25,911 nt of DNA from a virus. Of this stretch, positions 1 through 20,372 are shown piece after piece. The stretch covers positions 1-25,911 of the IMG/VR virus record IMGVR_UViG_3300031539_000276; one strand, written 5' to 3'. Numbering within the stretch: the stretch's first letter is position 1; the number at the start of each line of letters is the position of its first letter. The notes beneath the pieces were generated by a model. The model made no database searches and was not told where the DNA came from. It saw only the letters and a list, made by a program, of their open reading frames with translations. Position numbers and translations under genes: made by a program.

Positions 1-158
1 TCGGAGTCGGTGGGCGTGATCCAGCCGAACAGGATCGCGTTCATCCAGAGCCAGTTCTGGCCCGTGTGCAGCACCAGTAGGGTGCGGGCCGTGGAGAGTT
101 TCCCCTGCTCGTCGCGGAGCAAGTCACTGAGGCGGTGATTCTGGCGGCGCTCGTTCAT
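1..158 (-). CDS. Partial small membrane-associated phage protein (C-terminus beyond the window)
   Basis: The gene starts with the ATG at 158-156, which overlaps the TGA of the upstream gene in an ATGA junction, and stays open to the window edge (52 codons visible). The visible protein begins MNERRQNHRLSDLL, continues with a charged segment (RDEQGKLSTARTLL), and then enters a hydrophobic, Trp-rich stretch (NWLWMNAILFGWIT) that probably begins a membrane helix. A charged N-terminal 'LLRDEQGKLS' box followed by a membrane segment is a pattern I associate with small membrane proteins in phage lysis or late regions, but I cannot name the family. It directly follows a holin/XhlA-like gene, which fits a lysis-module position. 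Product unknown; the call is positional. Confidence 0.6.
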   Translation of the reverse strand, partial: MNERRQNHRLSDLLRDEQGKLSTARTLLVLHTGQNWLWMNAILFGWITPTDS

Positions 159-469
159 CGTGGGCCCCTCCTGCGCTCGTCGCGCACCTCATCCTCCAGC
201 CGCTTGATCCAACCGGCGTGCGCCTCCTGGGTTGTCTCAGCCCGGGCGAGCCGCTCACCATGATCGGCCACCGACGCCACGAGTTCCTTCACGTCCCCCT
301 TCGTCTCGGCAACGTTCTTGTCGGTGCGCTCGATCATGCCGCTCAGGCCATTGAGGCCCTTCTTCCAGGCCATCCACGCGCCGCCGGCGGAGAAGACCCC
401 ACCCACCGTGGCTGACACTCCAGCCACGATGGCGACTACTTGGACGAGGGAGGCGGGTTCGGCCTGCAT
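155..469 (-). CDS. Holin/XhlA-like membrane protein with coiled coil
   Basis: A 104-aa protein with one hydrophobic N-terminal segment (about residues 7-36, Gly/Ala/Val-rich, ending AWMAWKKG) followed by a long charged, heptad-like helix (about residues 43-98, from MIERTDKNV to RLEDEVRDERR). A membrane anchor plus coiled coil is the architecture of XhlA-type haemolysin/holin accessory proteins and of several phage lysis-cassette proteins. Their usual role is at the inner membrane during lysis; that role is inferred here. The ATG at 469-467 sits 2 nt after the stop of the methyltransferase-glycosyltransferase gene, with a GAGG motif about 8 nt upstream. It ends in an ATGA overlap with the next gene. 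No catalytic motif is visible. It could instead be a structural membrane-anchored coiled-coil protein. Confidence 0.65.
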   Translation of the reverse strand: MQAEPASLVQVVAIVAGVSATVGGVFSAGGAWMAWKKGLNGLSGMIERTDKNVAETKGDVKELVASVADHGERLARAETTQEAHAGWIKRLEDEVRDERRRGPR

Positions 470-471
470 GG

Positions 472-2187
472 TCAGATCCTCCCGTCAGGTGGTCGGCGGT
501 CAGCCGGTGAGGTCGGAAGGGCCAGCGCCTCGGCCACTTCTCCCCGGTAATAGGCCAGATTCTGGCGCAGGCGCGGGTCGGTCGGATTCAACTCTACCGC
601 CCTGGTCCCGTGGCGGATCGCCTCGTCATTCTTGCCCAGGTTGTACGCCGCCAGGGCAGCGTAGTCGTGCGGCGCGCTCCCCCACGCGAACGCTTCCGTG
701 AGGTAGAGCAGCTCCCGCTTGGTGATGGCGAGCGCCGCGATGGCCGCGGCGTAGCACGACACCCACTCGTTCCGCTCCATGCAGACCTTGGCGAGATCCA
801 CCCAGGCTTCGCGGAGGTTGGGGGCTTCCAATGCCGCGCGTGCCAGCCACTCCATCTGACGTGCCGGCTCGCACTTGGCGAGGTAGCGCATGGAGGCGGC
901 GCGCTCCGGCTTCCACTTCGCTGACGGGAGCGCGAGGTGCCGCCTAAACTCGGCGGCCGCCTCGTTGAGTTGCCCCCGAAAGAACAGCTCCCTGGCGTAG
1001 TAGTGCGCGTTTCTGTCGTCGTCCGGGGCTTCTGTTACCGCGAGCTTGAGCAGCGGCAGATAGTCGGGTTTGGCTCTGGCGGTCGGGTCGGGGTGGTGAT
1101 GGATCGCGAGCGTGACGTCGCCCTGTACCTCCTCTATCCCGTAAGTCTGAAGGACCTCGTGGACGGGATGCGTCCACCTGTACCCCTGGCGTGCGTGGAT
1201 CTTGTCGGCGTTGTAGACGATGTCCGGCGTCGTTCCGTCTGCAAGCCACGACCACGTGTAGGGGTATCGGGGACGGGTCAACCCTCGCGCCTTCGCGTCC
1301 TCCAGGGCTGCACGCCAGCCGGGCAGCAGCACCTCGTCCAGGTCGAGCGCGATGCAGTAGTCCGCGTCGCCCGGGATGAGCGATAGCGAGGCGGTGCGGG
1401 CCACGTCAAACCTCCACGGATCCACTACGATCTCGTGGACTGTCACGCCCGCGTCGCGGAGGACCTTCTGCGTCCCATCGGTCGAGCCGGTATCAGTGAC
1501 CACGCGATAGTCCGCGCCGACGGTGGACGCGGCCCACCGTTGGGCGCACGCGGCCTCGTTCTTCGAGATGGCGTACACGGCGACCTTCACGCGCACACCG
1601 GCTTCCCCCCGGGGCCCCATCTCCCCACGGGGACACGGTCCCGGGCCTAGCGGCCCGACTAGTCCGGTCGGGCCTATTGTGGCCCGGTAGATGTACGCCC
1701 CGATCTCAGCGTCGTTCACGAACTCGGTCGGTTCCCCGAGTGCGGCGCATACGCGCTCGTGCGACCAATCCTCCTCCACGTGGGTTTCAAACGGGTTGCC
1801 GCACAACGCCCCCTGCGGATAGTGGACGATGGGGATGGACACGACCACCATGTCCGCCACGCCACGAATCCTGTCCAAGAGCACGCGCGCCTCCTTGGAT
1901 GTCATGTGCTCCAGCACGTCCCCGAGGAAGGCGAGGTCATAGCGTCCCTCCGGCTCCCAGGTCCGCGCGTCGGAGACGTGGACAACGTCGTACTGCTCAC
2001 GGAGCTTGTACGCATCGACGTATGGCTCCCACACCTCCACAGCCGTCCAGTGGGAGCCGGGCCAGCGCGCGCGGAAAAGCTGCGCGTAGGTGCCGCAGCC
2101 CGCGCCGATGTCCAGGACGCGCTTCGGCCTTTCGCCCATGAGGCGTTCCACCATCCAGGCCTTACCATGTGGGCTGCTGCCCGGCAT
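472..2187 (-). CDS. Fusion enzyme: SAM methyltransferase + collagen-like linker + GT2 glycosyltransferase + TPR repeats
   Basis: A 571-aa protein. The start is the ATG at 2187-2185, 6 nt after a strong AGGAGG; longer upstream readings lack a good ribosome binding site. Domain 1 (about 20-170) is a class I SAM-dependent methyltransferase: motif I VLDIGAGCG at 24-32, an acidic residue after strand 2 (VEVWEP, 50-55), and GDVLEHM at 89-95. Residues 172-197 form a short collagen-like Gly-X-Y linker with one register break. Domain 2 (about 200-370) is a family 2 glycosyltransferase: SKNEA at 208-212, DTGSTDGT at 232-239, the metal-binding DLDE at 282-285 and WTHPVHE at 338-344. From about 385 to 560 there are helical repeats of TPR type. 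GT2 domains followed by TPRs occur in protein/peptide glycosyltransferases such as SunS. It lies beside a GPT-rich collagen-like tail fibre, so I infer it decorates that fibre. Host surface glycans are an alternative substrate. Confidence 0.85.
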   Translation of the reverse strand: MPGSSPHGKAWMVERLMGERPKRVLDIGAGCGTYAQLFRARWPGSHWTAVEVWEPYVDAYKLREQYDVVHVSDARTWEPEGRYDLAFLGDVLEHMTSKEARVLLDRIRGVADMVVVSIPIVHYPQGALCGNPFETHVEEDWSHERVCAALGEPTEFVNDAEIGAYIYRATIGPTGLVGPLGPGPCPRGEMGPRGEAGVRVKVAVYAISKNEAACAQRWAASTVGADYRVVTDTGSTDGTQKVLRDAGVTVHEIVVDPWRFDVARTASLSLIPGDADYCIALDLDEVLLPGWRAALEDAKARGLTRPRYPYTWSWLADGTTPDIVYNADKIHARQGYRWTHPVHEVLQTYGIEEVQGDVTLAIHHHPDPTARAKPDYLPLLKLAVTEAPDDDRNAHYYARELFFRGQLNEAAAEFRRHLALPSAKWKPERAASMRYLAKCEPARQMEWLARAALEAPNLREAWVDLAKVCMERNEWVSCYAAAIAALAITKRELLYLTEAFAWGSAPHDYAALAAYNLGKNDEAIRHGTRAVELNPTDPRLRQNLAYYRGEVAEALALPTSPADRRPPDGRI

Positions 2188-2197
2188 CGGCGTCCTC

Positions 2198-2344
2198 CTA
2201 GTTGTTCTGGGCGGGCGGCTCATCACCGCCGCCGCCACCCGGGCGGGTGGAGGTGAACGACCGCCGCCGAAGCGACTTGACGAGGACCAGCCCGCAGATC
2301 ACCAACGTGACCACGGCGACCAGAATCCCAATCCACTTGCTCAT
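2198..2344 (-). CDS. 48-aa single-helix membrane protein with Gly/Pro-rich tail
   Basis: A short gene between the collagen fibre and the fusion enzyme. The ATG at 2344-2342 is preceded at 5-6 nt by a textbook GCAGGAGG, and the stop TAG at 2200-2198 is embedded in the ribosome binding site of the next gene (TAGGAGG), implying translational coupling. The 48 residues comprise MSKW, one strong transmembrane helix (about 4-22, IGILVAVVTLVICGLVLV), a basic stop-transfer box (KSLRRR), then a Ser/Thr/Gly/Pro tail with five consecutive glycines and an acidic end (DEPPAQNN). The positive charges predict an N-out/C-in topology. I do not recognise a family. It could anchor the glycosyltransferase, take part in lysis (small holin or spanin-like) or alter the host envelope. 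Confidence 0.75.
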   Translation of the reverse strand: MSKWIGILVAVVTLVICGLVLVKSLRRRSFTSTRPGGGGGDEPPAQNN

Positions 2345-2380: not shown

Positions 2381-5300
2381 CTACCACGAGCCAGGATACC
2401 ACACGATTGCACCACTCATGTACGCCAGCACGTCGCCGTCCTCGGGTGAGTTTTCCGGGGTGATCGAGCCTGGCGGTCCCGTCGGCCCGGTGGGCCCTGT
2501 ATCTCCCGGCTCTCCAGTGTTGCCCTGAGGTCCTGTAGGGCCAGCGGGCCCCGTTGCTCCCGGAGTCCCCGTCTCACCTATCGCACCCTGCGGACCCGTC
2601 GGGCCCTGTGGACCTGTAGCCCCTTGAGAACCTTCGGCACCGGCCGGGCCGGTCGGCCCTACTGGACCCGTGGGCCCTGCCGCGCCGGTCGCGCCCGTCT
2701 CTCCGGTTTCTCCAATGCTCCCCTGGGGTCCAGTCGGTCCAGTGGCACCCGTGGCACCAGCGGCACCCTCGCCACCCTGTGGGCCTGTAGGACCCGTCGC
2801 ACCCGTTGCTCCTGGCGTACCAGTCTCACCAATCGGGCCCGTGTCGCCCGTCGGGCCTGTGGGGCCGGTAGCGCCTTGGCTGCCTTCCGCACCGGCAGGG
2901 CCAGTCGGTCCCGTTGGGCCAGCTGCACCCGTAGGTCCAGTGGGGCCCGTCTCTCCGGTTTCACCGATAGCGCCCTGTGAGCCTGTCGGCCCTGTGGCAC
3001 CCGTCGGGCCCTGGGAGCCCTCGACACCTATGGGACCCGTTGGACCCGTCGGCCCCTGCGGCCCCGTGGCCCCTTGAGCGCCCGTCTCACCAATAGGGCC
3101 GATCTCCCCCATCGGGCCCGTGGGGCCAGTGGCACCGTCCGCCCCGGCCTGCGCGACTAAGATCCAGTACGGCGAACCCGTGGGCTCCTCACCAGTGCTG
3201 CTCACTGAGATGAGGATGAAGCTAGACCCATAGGACTCCACGACATCGTCTGTGAAGTACGTCGTTTCGGCGACCCACTCGCCCATCCACTTCATCCCAG
3301 CAGCACCCTCAGGACCCGTCGGGCCTGTCGGTCCCGTCGGCCCCGTCGGACCGATCGAGCCCGTCTCGCCTATCGGTCCCGTGTCTCCGGTCGGGCCAGT
3401 AGGTCCCGTGGCACCCTGCGAACCTTCCGCACCAGCAGGACCCGTTGGCCCGGTCGGACCAGCAGGGCCGGTGGGACCCGTGGCGCCAGCCACCACCAGG
3501 TCGCCGACAGGGACGTTCCGGTTCCCCTGCGCGGAGTCGTCGTAGATGAGGAGGAGGTCGTTCACCCCGTCCACTGGGTCGGCCAGCGGGGTGAGGCGGG
3601 CCACGTCCACGTTGGGCACCAGGTCGCCGGTGGCTGCGTCTACGTCGAGGCGGAGCGCTCCGTCGCCGGCGGCCTTGAACACGAGCGGACCCATTACCTG
3701 ACTACCGCCCTGGTTCGTCGCCACTACCACCGGCGCCGGCGTGAACTCATAGACCACCGCCTCACCGGCCGCTCCAGTACCACCAGCCCCAGAGTACGGC
3801 GTCAGTGTCAGCGCCCACGTATGGCCGCGGATATCACCATCGGTCGGTTCTAGGACATCGTCTTTGTTCGGAGCATCCAGGGTGAAATCGTAGAACGGCG
3901 CGGCGTCCTTCGTGATGACGATCCTCAGGCTACCGACGCCATCCGTCGCCAGGTTCCAGTAGACCCACAGCGCTGTGTAGTTGCCCACGGGCGGCGGGTT
4001 GAGGACATCCACTACTTCCAGCCATGCCGACAGGATCTTGTTCCGCTCAAACCCCGCCGGGATGCTCCGCCGGATCAGCGAGGACTTGACCGCAGCGCCC
4101 TGGGCAGCGGCCGAGGTCCCTGCGCAGTTGAACATCCACCCGGAGAGGTACAGCTCCTGGCCGTCCAGGAGGGCGTCGATGGCGGAGAGGATCGCGGAGA
4201 GTTTCACCTGGGTCCCGAACGTGCTGAAGGTCCACGTCGCCACGCCCACGTCCGCGTCACTGGCGAGGGACGGGTCCTCGAAAGCGTCAGTGCCCGCAGC
4301 GGCAACCACGGCCTTGAGGCGACCAGACAGGCTGTCGGTGTCGATGGTCCGGGCCGTGCCGTAGGCTTCGTTGTCCGCGTCTACTGTCAGGTCCACCTCG
4401 CCCGAGGGGAACACGTCGGAGTCGGATTCCCGGTAGACAGTCTTGGAGGTGAGGGCGGGGGTGCCGTCGTCCACCGCGTAGGCCTCGATGACCACATTTG
4501 CCGCACCGTCCGCCGGGTGCGCGAAGCTGAACGGCTGGGCGAGCGGGTCGGTGGAGGGGCCCACGCTCGTGTAGGCCGGCGGGCCCGAGCCCTTGGCGTA
4601 GGTCCGGTAGTAGAGAGTGATGTTCGTGCCCTGGCCCGCAGCCACGGCGAGCCACTTCTCGTTGCCGTCGGTGGTGCGGCCCAGGTAGATGAGCTCCATG
4701 GTGGGGAGGTTGCCGCTCACCTGGTACGTGAAGGGCTTCACCTGGAGGCCGGTCACGTCGCCGTCCGCCACGTCCTCACCGACGATGCCCACGTAGACGG
4801 TCTGGGTCGGATCGCCGTCCGGGTCGAAGGTGTGGACCAGGACGCTTCCGGTCGCGTCTTCCACGCCCGATGCGTTCACCTCGCCGATGGTCGGGGCGTC
4901 GGTGACGTCCACCAGCCACCGAACGTGGGCGATGGGGTAGGTCCCCTGCCACACGAGGTAGAGCTCATCGCCGTCCAGGTCGAGCGTGGCCACCAGGGAG
5001 GGCTCGGTGAAGACCACCTTGAAGGACTTCTTGTAAGCGAAGAGTTGGTGAGCACCTGTGGTGCCCGTCGGGGTCTCGTATCCGAGGGCGGTCATGTAGA
5101 GCGTGTCGCCCAGGTCCCATGTCCCGCCGAGCACGAAGCTGGCCAGGCCATCGGCGTCCACCGCGTGGGCGGCCTGGGCGGCGGCGGTCGCGGCCGAGGG
5201 GTAGCCGGTGTCAGACACCGCAACCCTTACCGAGCCGGTGAACGGGAGCTTGGTGCGGAAGAACCCTGTGGCGGTCCCGGTGATGTCCCAGGAGACCGTG

Positions 5301-7612
5301 GCCTCGAGGACGGCCGGCCGCTTGAAGCCGTACCGGGTGACTTCGCCCGCGCCCGGGACGATGTCGCCGAGGGCTTGGATCCAGACCAATAGGCTCCGGC
5401 CCCAGCAATTCCCGGCCGTGGCCACCCTACCGATCCCCGCGACGGGGCCACGGATCTCCTGATCCGTCCCCGGGTCTCGGCCCACATACTTGTCGGTGAC
5501 GATGACAACGGGGTCGCCGGGTTCTAGGTGCGGGTGACCGTAGGTGGGCCGGATCTCCCAGAGCATGAGTCCATATGCGAAGTGATACGGGATCCGCTCG
5601 GCCACGATGTTGCCCAGGGTGCCGTCCGGGATCCACTTGGCGGTCTCATCATCCAGCCGCTCGGTCGTCTGGAGCCCGCGGCCACCCAGCTTCTCGGTGG
5701 CGGTCGCGTAGAACCGCCTCGATTCTCCGTCAAACCCGCCATTGCCGTCCTCGTCCTCAGCCCAGCCCCACGGAACGAAATACTCGTCCGTCCGCGAGGC
5801 GTACCCGGGGCCGATGTAGACCGGGGTGTAGTCGCCCGGCAGGAAAATGGCGGCGGGGGGTGGGACGGTCTGGTCGTCGCTCATCATCCGGACGGCCTTG
5901 ACCCGGCCCTGGGAAGTGATGATCCCGCACCCGGCCAGGTAAGCCAGGCGGTCCAGCTCATCCTTCGCGTCGGTCTCGCGGATGGTCTTGGTGACGTAGT
6001 TCGCGTCCTCCAGCAGCGGCCCACGGAACCGCCCGGGAAGGCCCACCTGGCCGTCCACGATGTCGGCAGCGGCAACCTTGATTGTGACGTTCGCGTACTC
6101 GATGGGCGTCCGCGTGCCATTGGCCCCGGAGGTCACAACAAACGGCGGGATGGTGCGGCGGAGTCGGTGGAGCGGGGAGATGCACGTCAGGACGTGGGCA
6201 GTGTCCGCGCACTCGTAGTCCTCCACCTCGAAGCTGTCGATGTGCATCCACTCGGAGCGCAACAGGTACTCGTAGGTCGGATCCCCGATCCAAATCCTGA
6301 CCTCGATCTCGCCGATGTGGTTCGCGGCGAGGATCTGCGTTCCGTAGTCGAGGTAGTCCTTCTCCCCGGTCTTCAGGATCCGCACGATGGCCTTGGTGAT
6401 GTTCCCCTTCAGCGAGTGGGGCTCCACTTGCCAGACGGCGTCGCTCACCGTGGCCACGCCGGAGAGGTCGGTCGTGGTCACCTCGCGCACTCCGAGCCGA
6501 CGCGCGATGGGCGATGCGAACCCGTCGGCGGACGGCGTGAGCGTGACGCGCATGTTCCAAGCGGCCGCCGGCGTGAGGCCGGAGAGGTCCGAGCCGCCGC
6601 GCGCGGTGTTGTCCTCGCCGATCACGTCCCCGTCCTTCACCGCGGTCCACGCGCCTCCACCCGAGGGCTGGATCTCATACGTGAGCGTGGAGCCGTTCGG
6701 GGCCTGGCCGTCCGCGATGATCTCCTGGCTCCCGGTGGTGCCGAGCCCTTGGATCCTGTTCCCGGCGCCCGAGAACGTGACGGTCGCCACGGTGTAACTC
6801 GCCCGGGCCAGCGTGAAGCGGGGCATGGAGCCACCGGGCGAGTCCAGGAGGATGACGGTGCCTCCGCCTCGCTCCTCGCCCTGGCTCGTGGCTCCTTCGG
6901 AAATGGCGTAGTGGGTGACCGAGTAGCCCGTGTCCGTGATGTTGGAGCCGAGGCGCGAGTCGGCGAGCCAGGCGGTGTTGCTCGCGGGCTCGCCGGTCGC
7001 CGTGACACCCCAGATTCGGATAAGGGTCTCGGGACATGTGGTCTGGGCGCCGGACCACCCCTCCGCGTACTTCGGCGCGGGCCCGACCACCGGGATGTAC
7101 TCGGCGTCGGTGAAGTCGAAGGTGATGTCCGACGCCGTGGTCCCGGGGGCCAGGGCGGTGGCGAATCCGATCTGGGCCACCACCATGCGGTCGTCGTCCG
7201 GCCCGCGCTCGATGACCCGGTAGATGGCCGCCCGCCATTCCGTCACGTCCTTGGCCAGGGCGCCGTTCGCCTTCGGGTGGAGGCGGGCCACCAGGTTGGC
7301 GAGCTCCCGGCGCTCGGCGTCGGCACCGGTCCACGTGATAATCAGGCCCATCGCCGGCATCGTGCGGGTCAGGCCGGTGACAAGCGTCCCGTCGTCGCTT
7401 CCCTGGGTGATGGCGTCCGACGTGTTCCGATAGAGCATGAGCCCGCCGGAGTCGAGCACCTGGACGTTGAGGCCGGAGTCGGCCCCGGTCCATTCGTCCA
7501 GCGTGTCCTTCACGTCGGAAGAGCGGACCTGGACCACCTCCGCGATGAGGTGGAGCGCCGGGTCAGGGCGGTGCAGCAGATCGCGGAACTTCGGGGTCCA
7601 CCCTGACCTCAT
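2381..7612 (-). CDS. Giant tail tip/fibre protein with C-terminal collagen-like stalk
   Basis: A 1743-aa protein, last and largest of the tail-tip genes. It starts in an ATGA overlap with the 889-aa tail gene. The first ~770 residues are mixed beta-rich domains, and a segment near 400-770 (rich in aromatic/beta motifs, including [19 protein letters not shown] and [16 protein letters not shown]) resembles tail hub/baseplate proteins in general character. Residues ~770-1370 look like a string of Ig/FNIII-like beta domains. From ~1374 the protein becomes collagen-like (Gly-X-Y, mostly GPT), interrupted at ~1440-1490 by a Trp/Tyr-rich module, and ends in a short non-collagen cap ([18 protein letters not shown]...WYPGSW). 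The role is inferred as a central tail tip plus receptor-binding fibre. The hub assignment is weaker than the fibre assignment. Confidence 0.8.
2467..3146 (-). repeat. Collagen-like Gly-X-Y repeat block 2 (coding)
   Basis: This part of the 1743-aa fibre gene encodes about 225 residues of nearly unbroken Gly-X-Y triplets, dominated by [12 protein letters not shown] and GAEGSQ modules. Such segments form trimeric triple helices in bacterial and phage collagen-like proteins. A module containing [14 protein letters not shown] occurs here twice and once in block 1. The same amino acids are written with different synonymous codons, so the DNA is a degenerate, not perfect, tandem repeat. Confidence 0.9.
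3147..3295 (-). other. Carbohydrate-binding-like module inserted in the collagen stalk
   Basis: Between the two collagen blocks the fibre gene encodes ~50 residues (starting MKWMGEW) with regularly spaced aromatic residues: [14 protein letters not shown], then P-YWILV. The W...Y...D.V...G..Y/F...P....W pattern resembles the small chitin-binding/CBM5/12-like modules commonly seen in phage collagen-like fibres. It would be displayed on the outside of the trimer at a hinge in the stalk. Binding specificity cannot be read from the sequence. Confidence 0.6.
3296..3494 (-). repeat. Collagen-like Gly-X-Y repeat block 1 (coding)
   Basis: About 65 residues of Gly-X-Y triplets, mostly GPT and GPA, at fibre residues ~1374-1439, between the beta-domain region and the inserted Trp/Tyr-rich module. 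It contains the first copy of the [14 protein letters not shown] module. Hydroxyproline is not expected in bacteria, so stability would rely on Gln/Glu/Thr at the Y position or on glycosylation of Thr. Confidence 0.9.
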
Positions 7613-18275: not shown

Positions 18276-19649
18276 TTAGCGCGTGGCCAGGGTGACGAAG
18301 GGGGAGAGGGTCGAGCCGTTCTTCGGCGTGAGCGCCGAACGCCACCAGGGCGCGCCGCAGTTCCGCTCGTAGAACCGGAACGTCCGCTCGAGCTGCAGGA
18401 AGCGAACGTGGATGGACTCGTCCTGGCGCATGGGCTGGTACAGGCCCTCCAGGAACTCGTAGAAGTTGGCGAGGATGATGTCGCCGGCCGTTCCCACCGT
18501 CTTGCAGAACTCGGTGTAGAACACGGGGCGGCCCCAGAGGAAGTCGGGGAACCCATCGCGCTCGCTCGGCTGGTAGAGCAGGACGCCGGCGGTGCCGACG
18601 GCGATGGAGCACTTCGCGAGTTGCGGACGGCAGTCGTGGTTGGCGAGCCAGATGGCGCGGTCGAGGCCGTAGACCCGCGCGGCCATGTCGATGATGTTGT
18701 CGCCGACGATGGTGGCGGCGGCCTGGTTGGTCTTCTTGGCCACCTCCACGGTGCACGCGGCGTTGACCACGCCGACGTACTGCGAGCCACCGATGCCGAA
18801 GAGCTTCTCGTTCAGCATGTGCGCGCCGCGTTCGTCCGCGAACCCAGAGGCCAGCATCGCCACGAACGAGATCGGCGAGTCGGTCATGATCTGCTCGGTG
18901 GCGTAGGCCGCACCGACCAGGGGCGACGCCTCCAGCGTCACTTGCTCCATGGCCATCCGGCTGGGCGTGGCCGTGGCGGTCTCGGGCGTGCGTGTGAACG
19001 TGAGCCCACCCGACACGCTGGTCGAGTGGTTCTTGTCCGTCCGCGCGTTGTATTTCACGATGGGCGCGGTCATGGGGACCAAGCGCGTCCGGCCGGCCGT
19101 CGGGTCGGCCTCGGGCTGGATGGACAGCATCCCGGGCATAACCTGCGTCGGCACGAGGAAGCCGCCGTAGGTGTCCGAGTAGGCGCCCTGCTCGTCGGAA
19201 CCCGCTGCCGCCCGGATGTCCTTCGGCGCGAACCCGCGGGGCAGCATGAACGCCATCTCCTGCCCCTCGTCGTCCGACACCGCGAGCATCCGGAGGCGCT
19301 CGTCCTTCACGTCCGCGCGCACCTGGGCCCGGGAGTCCTTCACCACGGACATGAGGAAGTCGCGGTGGCTCTCGAACCCGGCGCGCGGGTCCTTCGCGGC
19401 GCGGGGCTCCGCGACCGTCGAGCGGACGGACGGGGCGGCCGCCGCCTTGGCCTGGATGAGCTCCAGGATGCTGGCGTTGACCTGGTCCACCGACAGGCCG
19501 TCGTTCACCCACTTGTCGGCCGTCGCGGCGTCGATCTTGTGGGTCGCGGTGATGCTGCGGATCTGATGCATCCGCGTCTTCTCGGCGGCACGGATGCTGG
19601 CGAGCTGGTCAGCCCCACTCGGGGCCGCCGTGTCCTTGACATCGGACAT
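18276..19649 (-). other. Candidate internal start giving a stand-alone capsid protein (457 aa)
   Basis: Inside the fusion gene, the ATG at 19649-19647 (MSDVKDTAAPSGAD) is preceded by AGGGAG at 6 nt. This would initiate a 457-aa protein containing just the helical delta-like region and the HK97 capsid domain, at the exact boundary between the linker and capsid part. This would resemble the nested C/Nu3 arrangement of lambda, in which protease and a shorter in-frame product come from one gene. Confidence 0.5.
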
Positions 19650-20372
19650 GGGATTCTCCCTGGCCACGGGGGCCGGTTCGATGGGTGCAGGGGTGATGAC
19701 CTCCGCCACGTGCACCCCCGCGGCGGTCGGTGTGATGGGGGCGGGGCTGGAGACCAGCGCCGCCAATGCGGTCGGGGTGTTGCGGAAGGTGGACATGTCC
19801 GCCCGGGCCTCGATGACCTTGCCCTTGGTGATGGCGTCCACAAAGCCGGCGGCCTTCGCCTCCTCGGCCGTGAACCACGTTTCCGCGTCCATCCATTCCT
19901 GGACCTGGGCGTCGTCCTGACCGGACTTCTCGGCGTAGACGTGGGCGAGGGAGCCGCCGACCCTGTCGAGCAGGTCGGCGAACTCGCGCATGTCGTTGGC
20001 GTCGCCCATGACCAGGCCGGCGGGGTTGTGGATCATGAAGAAGGCGTTGTCCGCCATCTTCACCGTGTCGCCCGCCAGGGCGATGACCGAGGCGATGGAC
20101 GCGGCCACCCCGTCGATCTCGGTGGTGATCTTCGCCTTGTGCGTGCGCAGCGCGTTGTAGATGGCGAGCCCCTCGAAGACCTCGCCTCCGCCCGAGTTGA
20201 TGCGGACGCGGATGCGCTTCGCGTCGAGGGCCTCCAGATCCTTCACGACCTGCTTGGCCGTCACGCCCTCGCCGTACCAGTTCGCGCCGATGTCGTCGTA
20301 GATGAGGATTTCCGCCTCGCCTTTCTTCTCATCGGAGGCGCGGATCTGGCAGCGGAGTTGATGGTTGTGCAT
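18276..20372 (-). CDS. Fused ClpP-like prohead protease and HK97-fold major capsid protein
   Basis: A 698-aa protein, ATG at 20372-20370 with GGAGG 8 nt upstream. Residues ~20-185 are a ClpP-like serine protease: RVRINSGGGEVFEGLAIYNAL at 55-75, catalytic Ser in GVAASIAS (Ser92), catalytic His in MIHNP (His115), and a likely Asp near DAETWFTAEEAKAAGFVD (Asp162). After a Pro/Ala linker (~195-240) comes a helical delta-domain-like stretch (~242-310) and an HK97-type capsid domain from ~385 (SDTYGGFLVPTQVMPGM) to the end, including LMNEKLFG-like HMLNEKLFGIGG and GLDRAIWLANHD. The protease matures proheads by cutting scaffold/delta segments; the capsid domain builds the shell. Such fusions are known in other phages. 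Confidence 0.9.
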   Translation of the reverse strand: MHNHQLRCQIRASDEKKGEAEILIYDDIGANWYGEGVTAKQVVKDLEALDAKRIRVRINSGGGEVFEGLAIYNALRTHKAKITTEIDGVAASIASVIALAGDTVKMADNAFFMIHNPAGLVMGDANDMREFADLLDRVGGSLAHVYAEKSGQDDAQVQEWMDAETWFTAEEAKAAGFVDAITKGKVIEARADMSTFRNTPTALAALVSSPAPITPTAAGVHVAEVITPAPIEPAPVARENPMSDVKDTAAPSGADQLASIRAAEKTRMHQIRSITATHKIDAATADKWVNDGLSVDQVNASILELIQAKAAAAPSVRSTVAEPRAAKDPRAGFESHRDFLMSVVKDSRAQVRADVKDERLRMLAVSDDEGQEMAFMLPRGFAPKDIRAAAGSDEQGAYSDTYGGFLVPTQVMPGMLSIQPEADPTAGRTRLVPMTAPIVKYNARTDKNHSTSVSGGLTFTRTPETATATPSRMAMEQVTLEASPLVGAAYATEQIMTDSPISFVAMLASGFADERGAHMLNEKLFGIGGSQYVGVVNAACTVEVAKKTNQAAATIVGDNIIDMAARVYGLDRAIWLANHDCRPQLAKCSIAVGTAGVLLYQPSERDGFPDFLWGRPVFYTEFCKTVGTAGDIILANFYEFLEGLYQPMRQDESIHVRFLQLERTFRFYERNCGAPWWRSALTPKNGSTLSPFVTLATR

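Follow-up and report, generated by a model that had tools for sequence, protein, structure and literature searches.

The locus examined here raises the question of what a phage would modify with an enzyme that carries a methyltransferase (MT) and a glycosyltransferase (GT) on one polypeptide and is encoded beside a collagen-like tail fibre. The stretch of DNA that was analysed, referred to as the window (25,911 nucleotides), is an IMG/VR virus contig of 25.9 kb; its GC content is 68%, and its genes include those for terminase, portal, and capsid. Relatives of its TerL are at most 39% identical and are scattered across many hosts. On the minus strand (18276–20372), one open reading frame joins the major capsid protein and a ClpP-like head maturation protease in a single fusion. 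The features that bear on the question are collected in Table 1.

Table 1. Coordinates of the enzyme gene, its domains, and the neighbouring open reading frames in the window
Feature	Coordinates	Strand	Basis
MT-GT2-TPR fusion enzyme, 571 aa	472..2187	minus	ORF, AGGAGG, Pfam, PHROG, AF2
Class I SAM methyltransferase domain, N-terminal, aa 1-168	1684..2187	minus	Methyltransf_23/25; homologues fused or adjacent to glycosyltransferases
Collagen-like interdomain linker ATIGPTGLVGPLGPGPCPRGEMGPRGEAG, between MT and GT	1597..1683	minus	Sequence; comparison with other fusions
GT2/GT-A glycosyltransferase domain (DTGSTDGT, DLDE, WTHPVHE)	1093..1596	minus	PHROG 13126; GmaR and SunS by profile; ThuS/SunS by fold
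TPR-like helical domain, C-terminal	475..1092	minus	TPR_14; AF2 helices; OGT TPR by fold
48-codon ORF that separates the enzyme from the fibre; hydrophobic stretch at the N-terminus	2198..2344	minus	Translation
Tail protein/fibre P0002, 1743 aa, GPT-type collagen-like C-terminal region aa 1376-1717, proposed substrate	2381..7612	minus	Pfam Collagen 1e-39
104-aa ORF downstream of enzyme, PHROG 1009 (no function assigned); N-terminus hydrophobic, resembling a holin in appearance only	155..469	minus	

Architecture of the enzyme and its fibre neighbour

A sequence-only reading of the window had described the enzyme as a class I MT followed by a GT2 domain and TPRs, and this description held, since the open reading frame, Pfam, PHROG, and AlphaFold2 agree on it and the quoted motifs are present. 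The enzyme starts at the ATG at position 2187, with an AGGAGG just 5' of it. Methyltransf_23 (E 2e-8), Methyltransf_25 (E 4e-7), and TPR_14 pass the Pfam cut-offs, and Glyco_tranf_2_4 lies just under its own (E 1e-4). NCBIfam offered no specific name for the enzyme. Residues 218–571, the GT and TPR part, match PHROG 13126 at 1e-100, a family annotated as "beta-1,4-glycosyltransferase" and assigned to the category host takeover. The AlphaFold2 model, based on 35 related sequences, has a mean pLDDT of 89 and three confident domains, which consist of the MT (1–168), a GT-A domain (about 200–365), and TPR-like helices (377–547), with a disordered linker at residues 172–195.

Foldseek searches with the GT and helical part returned as best matches the peptide S-glycosyltransferases SunS and ThuS (7msn, 7msk; E 7e-15 to 1e-14), with further fold matches to GmaR and to the TPR domain of OGT. 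In a profile search, the best solved relative of the GT domain was GmaR (22ao, 7x9r; E 7e-8); SunS was also matched, and a weak match to the TPR domain of collagen prolyl-4-hydroxylase appeared (E about 0.01). The proteins with these folds act on different substrates. SunS and ThuS modify Cys of bacteriocin precursors, whereas Cys is absent from the collagen stretch of the tail protein encoded next to the window enzyme, and GmaR, a relative in the GT domain, is a flagellin O-GlcNAc transferase with an anti-repressor role. The MT part matched many O-methyltransferases by fold, among them the sugar O-methyltransferase EvdMO1.

The collagen-like region of the fibre P0002 comprises 97 Gly-X-Y triplets, of which 53 have Thr at Y and 28 are GPT; Ser occupies Y in none of the 97. 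The enzyme had been placed immediately downstream of the fibre, which is nearly right, although the 48-codon open reading frame intervenes. The cassette of enzyme and fibre sits in the structural module.

The linker between MT and GT has a collagen-like character that the first reading overlooked. It is a feature of the window enzyme only and is absent from all other MT-GT fusions found. No other part of the enzyme gene folds as strongly at the RNA level, where the linker forms strong hairpins (z -2.76). The fold of the linker DNA (z -2.8) barely exceeds that of the most structured collagen DNA of the fibre, a margin too small to establish the linker as a hairpin element or as a collagen arm under selection. 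Whether the linker arose as a copy of fibre-gene sequence was tested, and the case is unconvincing, as the matches span just 12–13 nt.

The GT family is linked to collagen genes in phages and Clostridia

Scanning with the whole enzyme as a single protein recovered one distant relative only, so that aligned GT parts had to serve as the query. With those of the window, the Actinomycetia phage DSL-LC01, and a human-faecal clone (alignment A1), 80 viral loci and 80 genome loci were obtained, the latter almost all from Clostridia. The motif DTGSxD is present in 165 of 165 core GT proteins and DxDE in 164 of 165; the window enzyme has both. The closest phage relatives of the GT, in DSL-LC01 (54%) and in the human-faecal clone (44%), each have a GPT-collagen gene upstream.

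Collagen genes in the loci were scored as a Gly-X-Y run of at least 8. An enzyme found broadly in phages without collagen proteins would, by its own statement, have refuted the sequence-only reading, and this was not the case: GPT-collagen is present on all 32 viral contigs of at least 30 kb that carry the core GT, and the controls have little or none, with Gly-X-Y runs on 1 of 19 random viral contigs of at least 30 kb. The Fisher p value for this comparison is 7e-13, with the limit that the contigs are related and the counts not independent, since the viral loci are largely those of related actinophages. Of the core-GT loci, 61/80 from viruses and 72/80 from genomes have a Gly-X-Y run within 10 kb of the GT. 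The same distance held no run in 42 random loci, in 20 loci of distant phage GTs, or in 26 MT-family loci without the core GT. The viral core-GT loci that lack a run are mostly short fragments, and the two longest of them have GPT-collagen when the whole records are considered.

Gene order gives a more specific picture. Among the 59 Clostridia loci with enough flank, a same-strand run ends at most 1.2 kb upstream of the GT in 49, as compared to 3.7% of random positions; for the viral loci the corresponding values are 16 of 68 and 6.5%. Where Clostridia loci were inspected (L102, L103, L129, L154, and L162), the GPT-collagen gene ends 58–118 bp before the GT, and the recurrent neighbours of Clostridia GTs are not phage structural genes. 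One of these members, L103, matches PHROG 13126 at 1e-110. In some of the five collagens the N-terminus is rich in Cys and a short C-terminus (NQLLANLRAAGL-like) is shared, an exosporium-like arrangement.

Could the linkage reflect shared descent of the tail module and nothing else? The viral set is dominated by related actinophages, and a WhiB-like gene adjoins the GT in 31 viral loci, as such descent would have it. However, the GTs are only about 45–60% identical, the ends of the paired collagen genes are non-homologous, the intervening genes differ, and the same pairing is found in the genomes of Oscillospiraceae and other Clostridia. We consider that a linkage without any enzyme-substrate relation is very improbable.

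A further possibility is that the enzyme glycosylates other virion proteins, such as capsid or tail tube, and that the collagen neighbour is incidental. In mycobacteriophages, GTs encoded next to an O-methyltransferase are reported to modify capsid and tail-tube proteins (Freeman 2023, as cited in PMC11600133). The window resembles that system in that phage GT and methyltransferase genes lie in a structural module, but it differs in that the mycobacteriophage enzymes are encoded by separate genes and act on capsid and tail tube rather than on a collagen-like fibre. The position of the GT directly behind collagen genes in Clostridia, away from phage structural genes, and the near-complete linkage to GPT-collagen in long viral contigs both argue against an incidental neighbour, and we regard this explanation as unlikely.

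Freshwater actinophages carry both GT and collagen-like genes, and DNA protection or superinfection exclusion has been suggested as the role of their GTs (PMC10202952). By analogy, the window enzyme could alter host surface glycans, receptors, or phage DNA, and the host takeover category of its PHROG points the same way. Against such a role, which we judge to be very unlikely, no membrane segment was found in the enzyme sequence or fold model, the TPR-bearing fold is like that of peptide and protein glycosyltransferases, and the collagen linkage in bacteria would be left unexplained.

The association runs in one direction. When collagen was used to predict the GT, just 2 of the 117 phage loci sampled for Gly-X-Y had the core GT, so that the GT is an optional addition to phage collagens. 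The collagens linked to the GT are rich in Thr, with a median Thr-at-Y fraction of 0.57 in viruses and 0.56 in Clostridia, as compared to 0.12 in an unbiased sample of phage Gly-X-Y regions that includes non-collagen GSS/GYS repeats. In Gram-positive collagens as a whole, Thr often occupies Y (48%, PMC8968730), and given this and the repeats in the control, the enrichment is only suggestive. It supports Thr as the putative acceptor without proving it.

The wider GT family extends beyond collagen. Distant members in jumbo phages (L005–L008 and their relatives L369–L392) have no collagen nearby, and those of L005–L008 are positioned between DNA ligase and prohead protease genes. These enzymes probably act on another substrate, which indicates that the wider family has other substrates. 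One core GT (L052:10001-11740) carries a 237-aa C-terminal extension that resembles a second GT2-type domain.

The MT family accompanies glycosyltransferases

For the MT, an alignment of the window domain and three homologues was used as the query and yielded 37 viral loci. The search for further MT-GT2-TPR fusions, proposed in the sequence-only reading, turned up in-frame fusions like that of the window on 8 further contigs (L170–L177, of which L171 is cut by the contig end). GPT-collagen is present on 5 of them, and the other 3 are only 5–6 kb long. The fusion in L170 is 73% identical to that of the window in the MT and 61% in the GT, and its gene comes after that of a tail protein in which Gly-X-Y triplets continue without interruption for about 885 residues. 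In L043, L050, and L199, the MT is encoded by its own gene, which directly adjoins the start of the GT or overlaps it.

Elsewhere the MT family has other partners. It is fused to an unrelated Gly_transf_sug GT in 10 contigs. In most of the other lineages examined, L179 and L196 being exceptions, MTs without the core GT have a GT2, GT group 1, GT17, or GT25 gene beside them. Collagen is absent from all of these loci. The Gly_transf_sug-MT fusions (411 aa; L181, L183–L187, L189, L191, L193, and L194) represent a second kind of MT-GT fusion, and the one in L187 adjoins a GT25 gene. With the GT tied to collagen and the MT to glycosyltransferases, sugar methylation is the likely second step. The first reading had left the choice between sugar and side-chain methylation open; the MT neighbourhoods favour the sugar over the side chain as the likely target. 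That the MT instead has the fibre protein or some unrelated substrate as its target is fairly unlikely: its substrate is unreadable from sequence and the Foldseek matches span many O-methyltransferases, but the family pairs with several unrelated glycosyltransferase families even where collagen is absent.

The relationships among the fusions were examined in trees. In a tree of 190 GTs, those of the window and L170 are sisters (support 100) within a set of 80 rows (97), and the L172-type fusion falls in another clade (100), apart from both. In the MT tree, the fused MTs group loosely together, which is compatible with one origin. On these trees, two fusions or one fusion with a later exchange of the GT are both possible.

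Other putative tailoring genes occur near the core GT. An unrelated Methyltransf_24 gene is present at 17 of the viral loci, and 7 have a tryptophan-halogenase (L003, L037, L038, L044, L057, L059, and L078), one of which is DSL-LC01; several of the halogenase genes are directly adjacent to the GT. These halogenases may modify the fibre or its decoration.

Discussion

The sequence-only reading had proposed that the enzyme decorates the neighbouring GPT-collagen fibre by sugar transfer and methylation, and this idea gained strong comparative support from the linkage in phages and in gut-dwelling Clostridia and from the pairing of the MT with glycosyltransferases. As the GT family is near-obligately tied to GPT-collagen genes, the enzyme would most likely decorate the phage's own fibre. 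We think it probable, by analogy and from comparison of sequences, that the enzyme is a phage-borne decorator that would glycosylate Thr in the collagen region of the fibre and then O-methylate the sugar. The proposal takes up four observations, namely the domain architecture, the GT-collagen link, the MT-glycosyltransferase link, and the recurrence of the MT-GT fusion.

The enzyme would act in the cytosol during assembly of new virions. Its TPR domain would hold the Gly-X-Y chain while the GT-A domain, drawing on a host nucleotide-sugar, attaches a sugar to threonines of the fibre, predicted to be those at Y of Gly-Pro-Thr and similar triplets in the C-terminal collagen-like region of the adjoining tail protein. 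The fused MT would then O-methylate the transferred sugar. For the virion, the decoration could provide shielding, tune receptor binding, or support a triple helix that is free of hydroxyproline. The acceptor residue, the donor sugar, the order of the steps, and the benefit to the virion are what we infer.

The closest experimental precedent, which the first reading did not name, is SgtA of C. difficile, which has a GT-A domain and four TPRs, uses UDP-GlcNAc and Mn2+ to place beta-O-GlcNAc onto Thr of the GPT region of BclA3, and is encoded by a gene that adjoins bclA3 (PMC7157674). From that description, the window GT can be likened to SgtA in layout, size, and gene neighbourhood: both combine a GT-A domain with C-terminal TPRs, at about 360 aa, and both genes lie beside one for a GPT-rich collagen-like protein. 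Thr O-glycosylation has been shown for SgtA and is proposed for the window enzyme. SgtA differs in that it has no fused methyltransferase and acts at the spore surface, not on a virion. Collagen modification in Mimivirus, a virus of amoebae, consists of lysyl hydroxylation and glucosylation and is chemically unrelated to that considered here. The collagen-modifying enzymes of this virus, mentioned in a review (PMC8968730), provide an example of a virus that puts sugar on its own collagen.

The locus could also belong to a modular cassette for collagen decoration, in which a conserved collagen-Thr GT is combined with exchangeable tailoring enzymes (the fused MT, an adjacent Methyltransf_24, or a flavin halogenase) that would diversify the glycans of the fibre. 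The short collagen-like arm of the window enzyme could then dock on the fibre triple helix, or join it, during modification. We put this extension forward as a possible but doubtful one.

Neither the class of enzyme nor the idea that virions are glycosylated is new. The open-access papers searched contained no link between this phage GT family and collagen; as far as could be checked, the near-obligate association of the GT with collagen in phages and in Clostridia is new, as is the recurrence of the MT-GT fusion. They provide a testable function for a widespread phage GT family that is annotated as "beta-1,4-glycosyltransferase, host takeover" and connect, through one enzyme family, phage tail collagens with a collagen system of Clostridia. 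A compact MT-GT fusion could serve as a single-gene tool for the glycosylation of GPT collagen. The findings further suggest that certain phage fibres carry methylated sugars, as glycoproteins; this would matter for the adsorption, stability, and recognition of virions.
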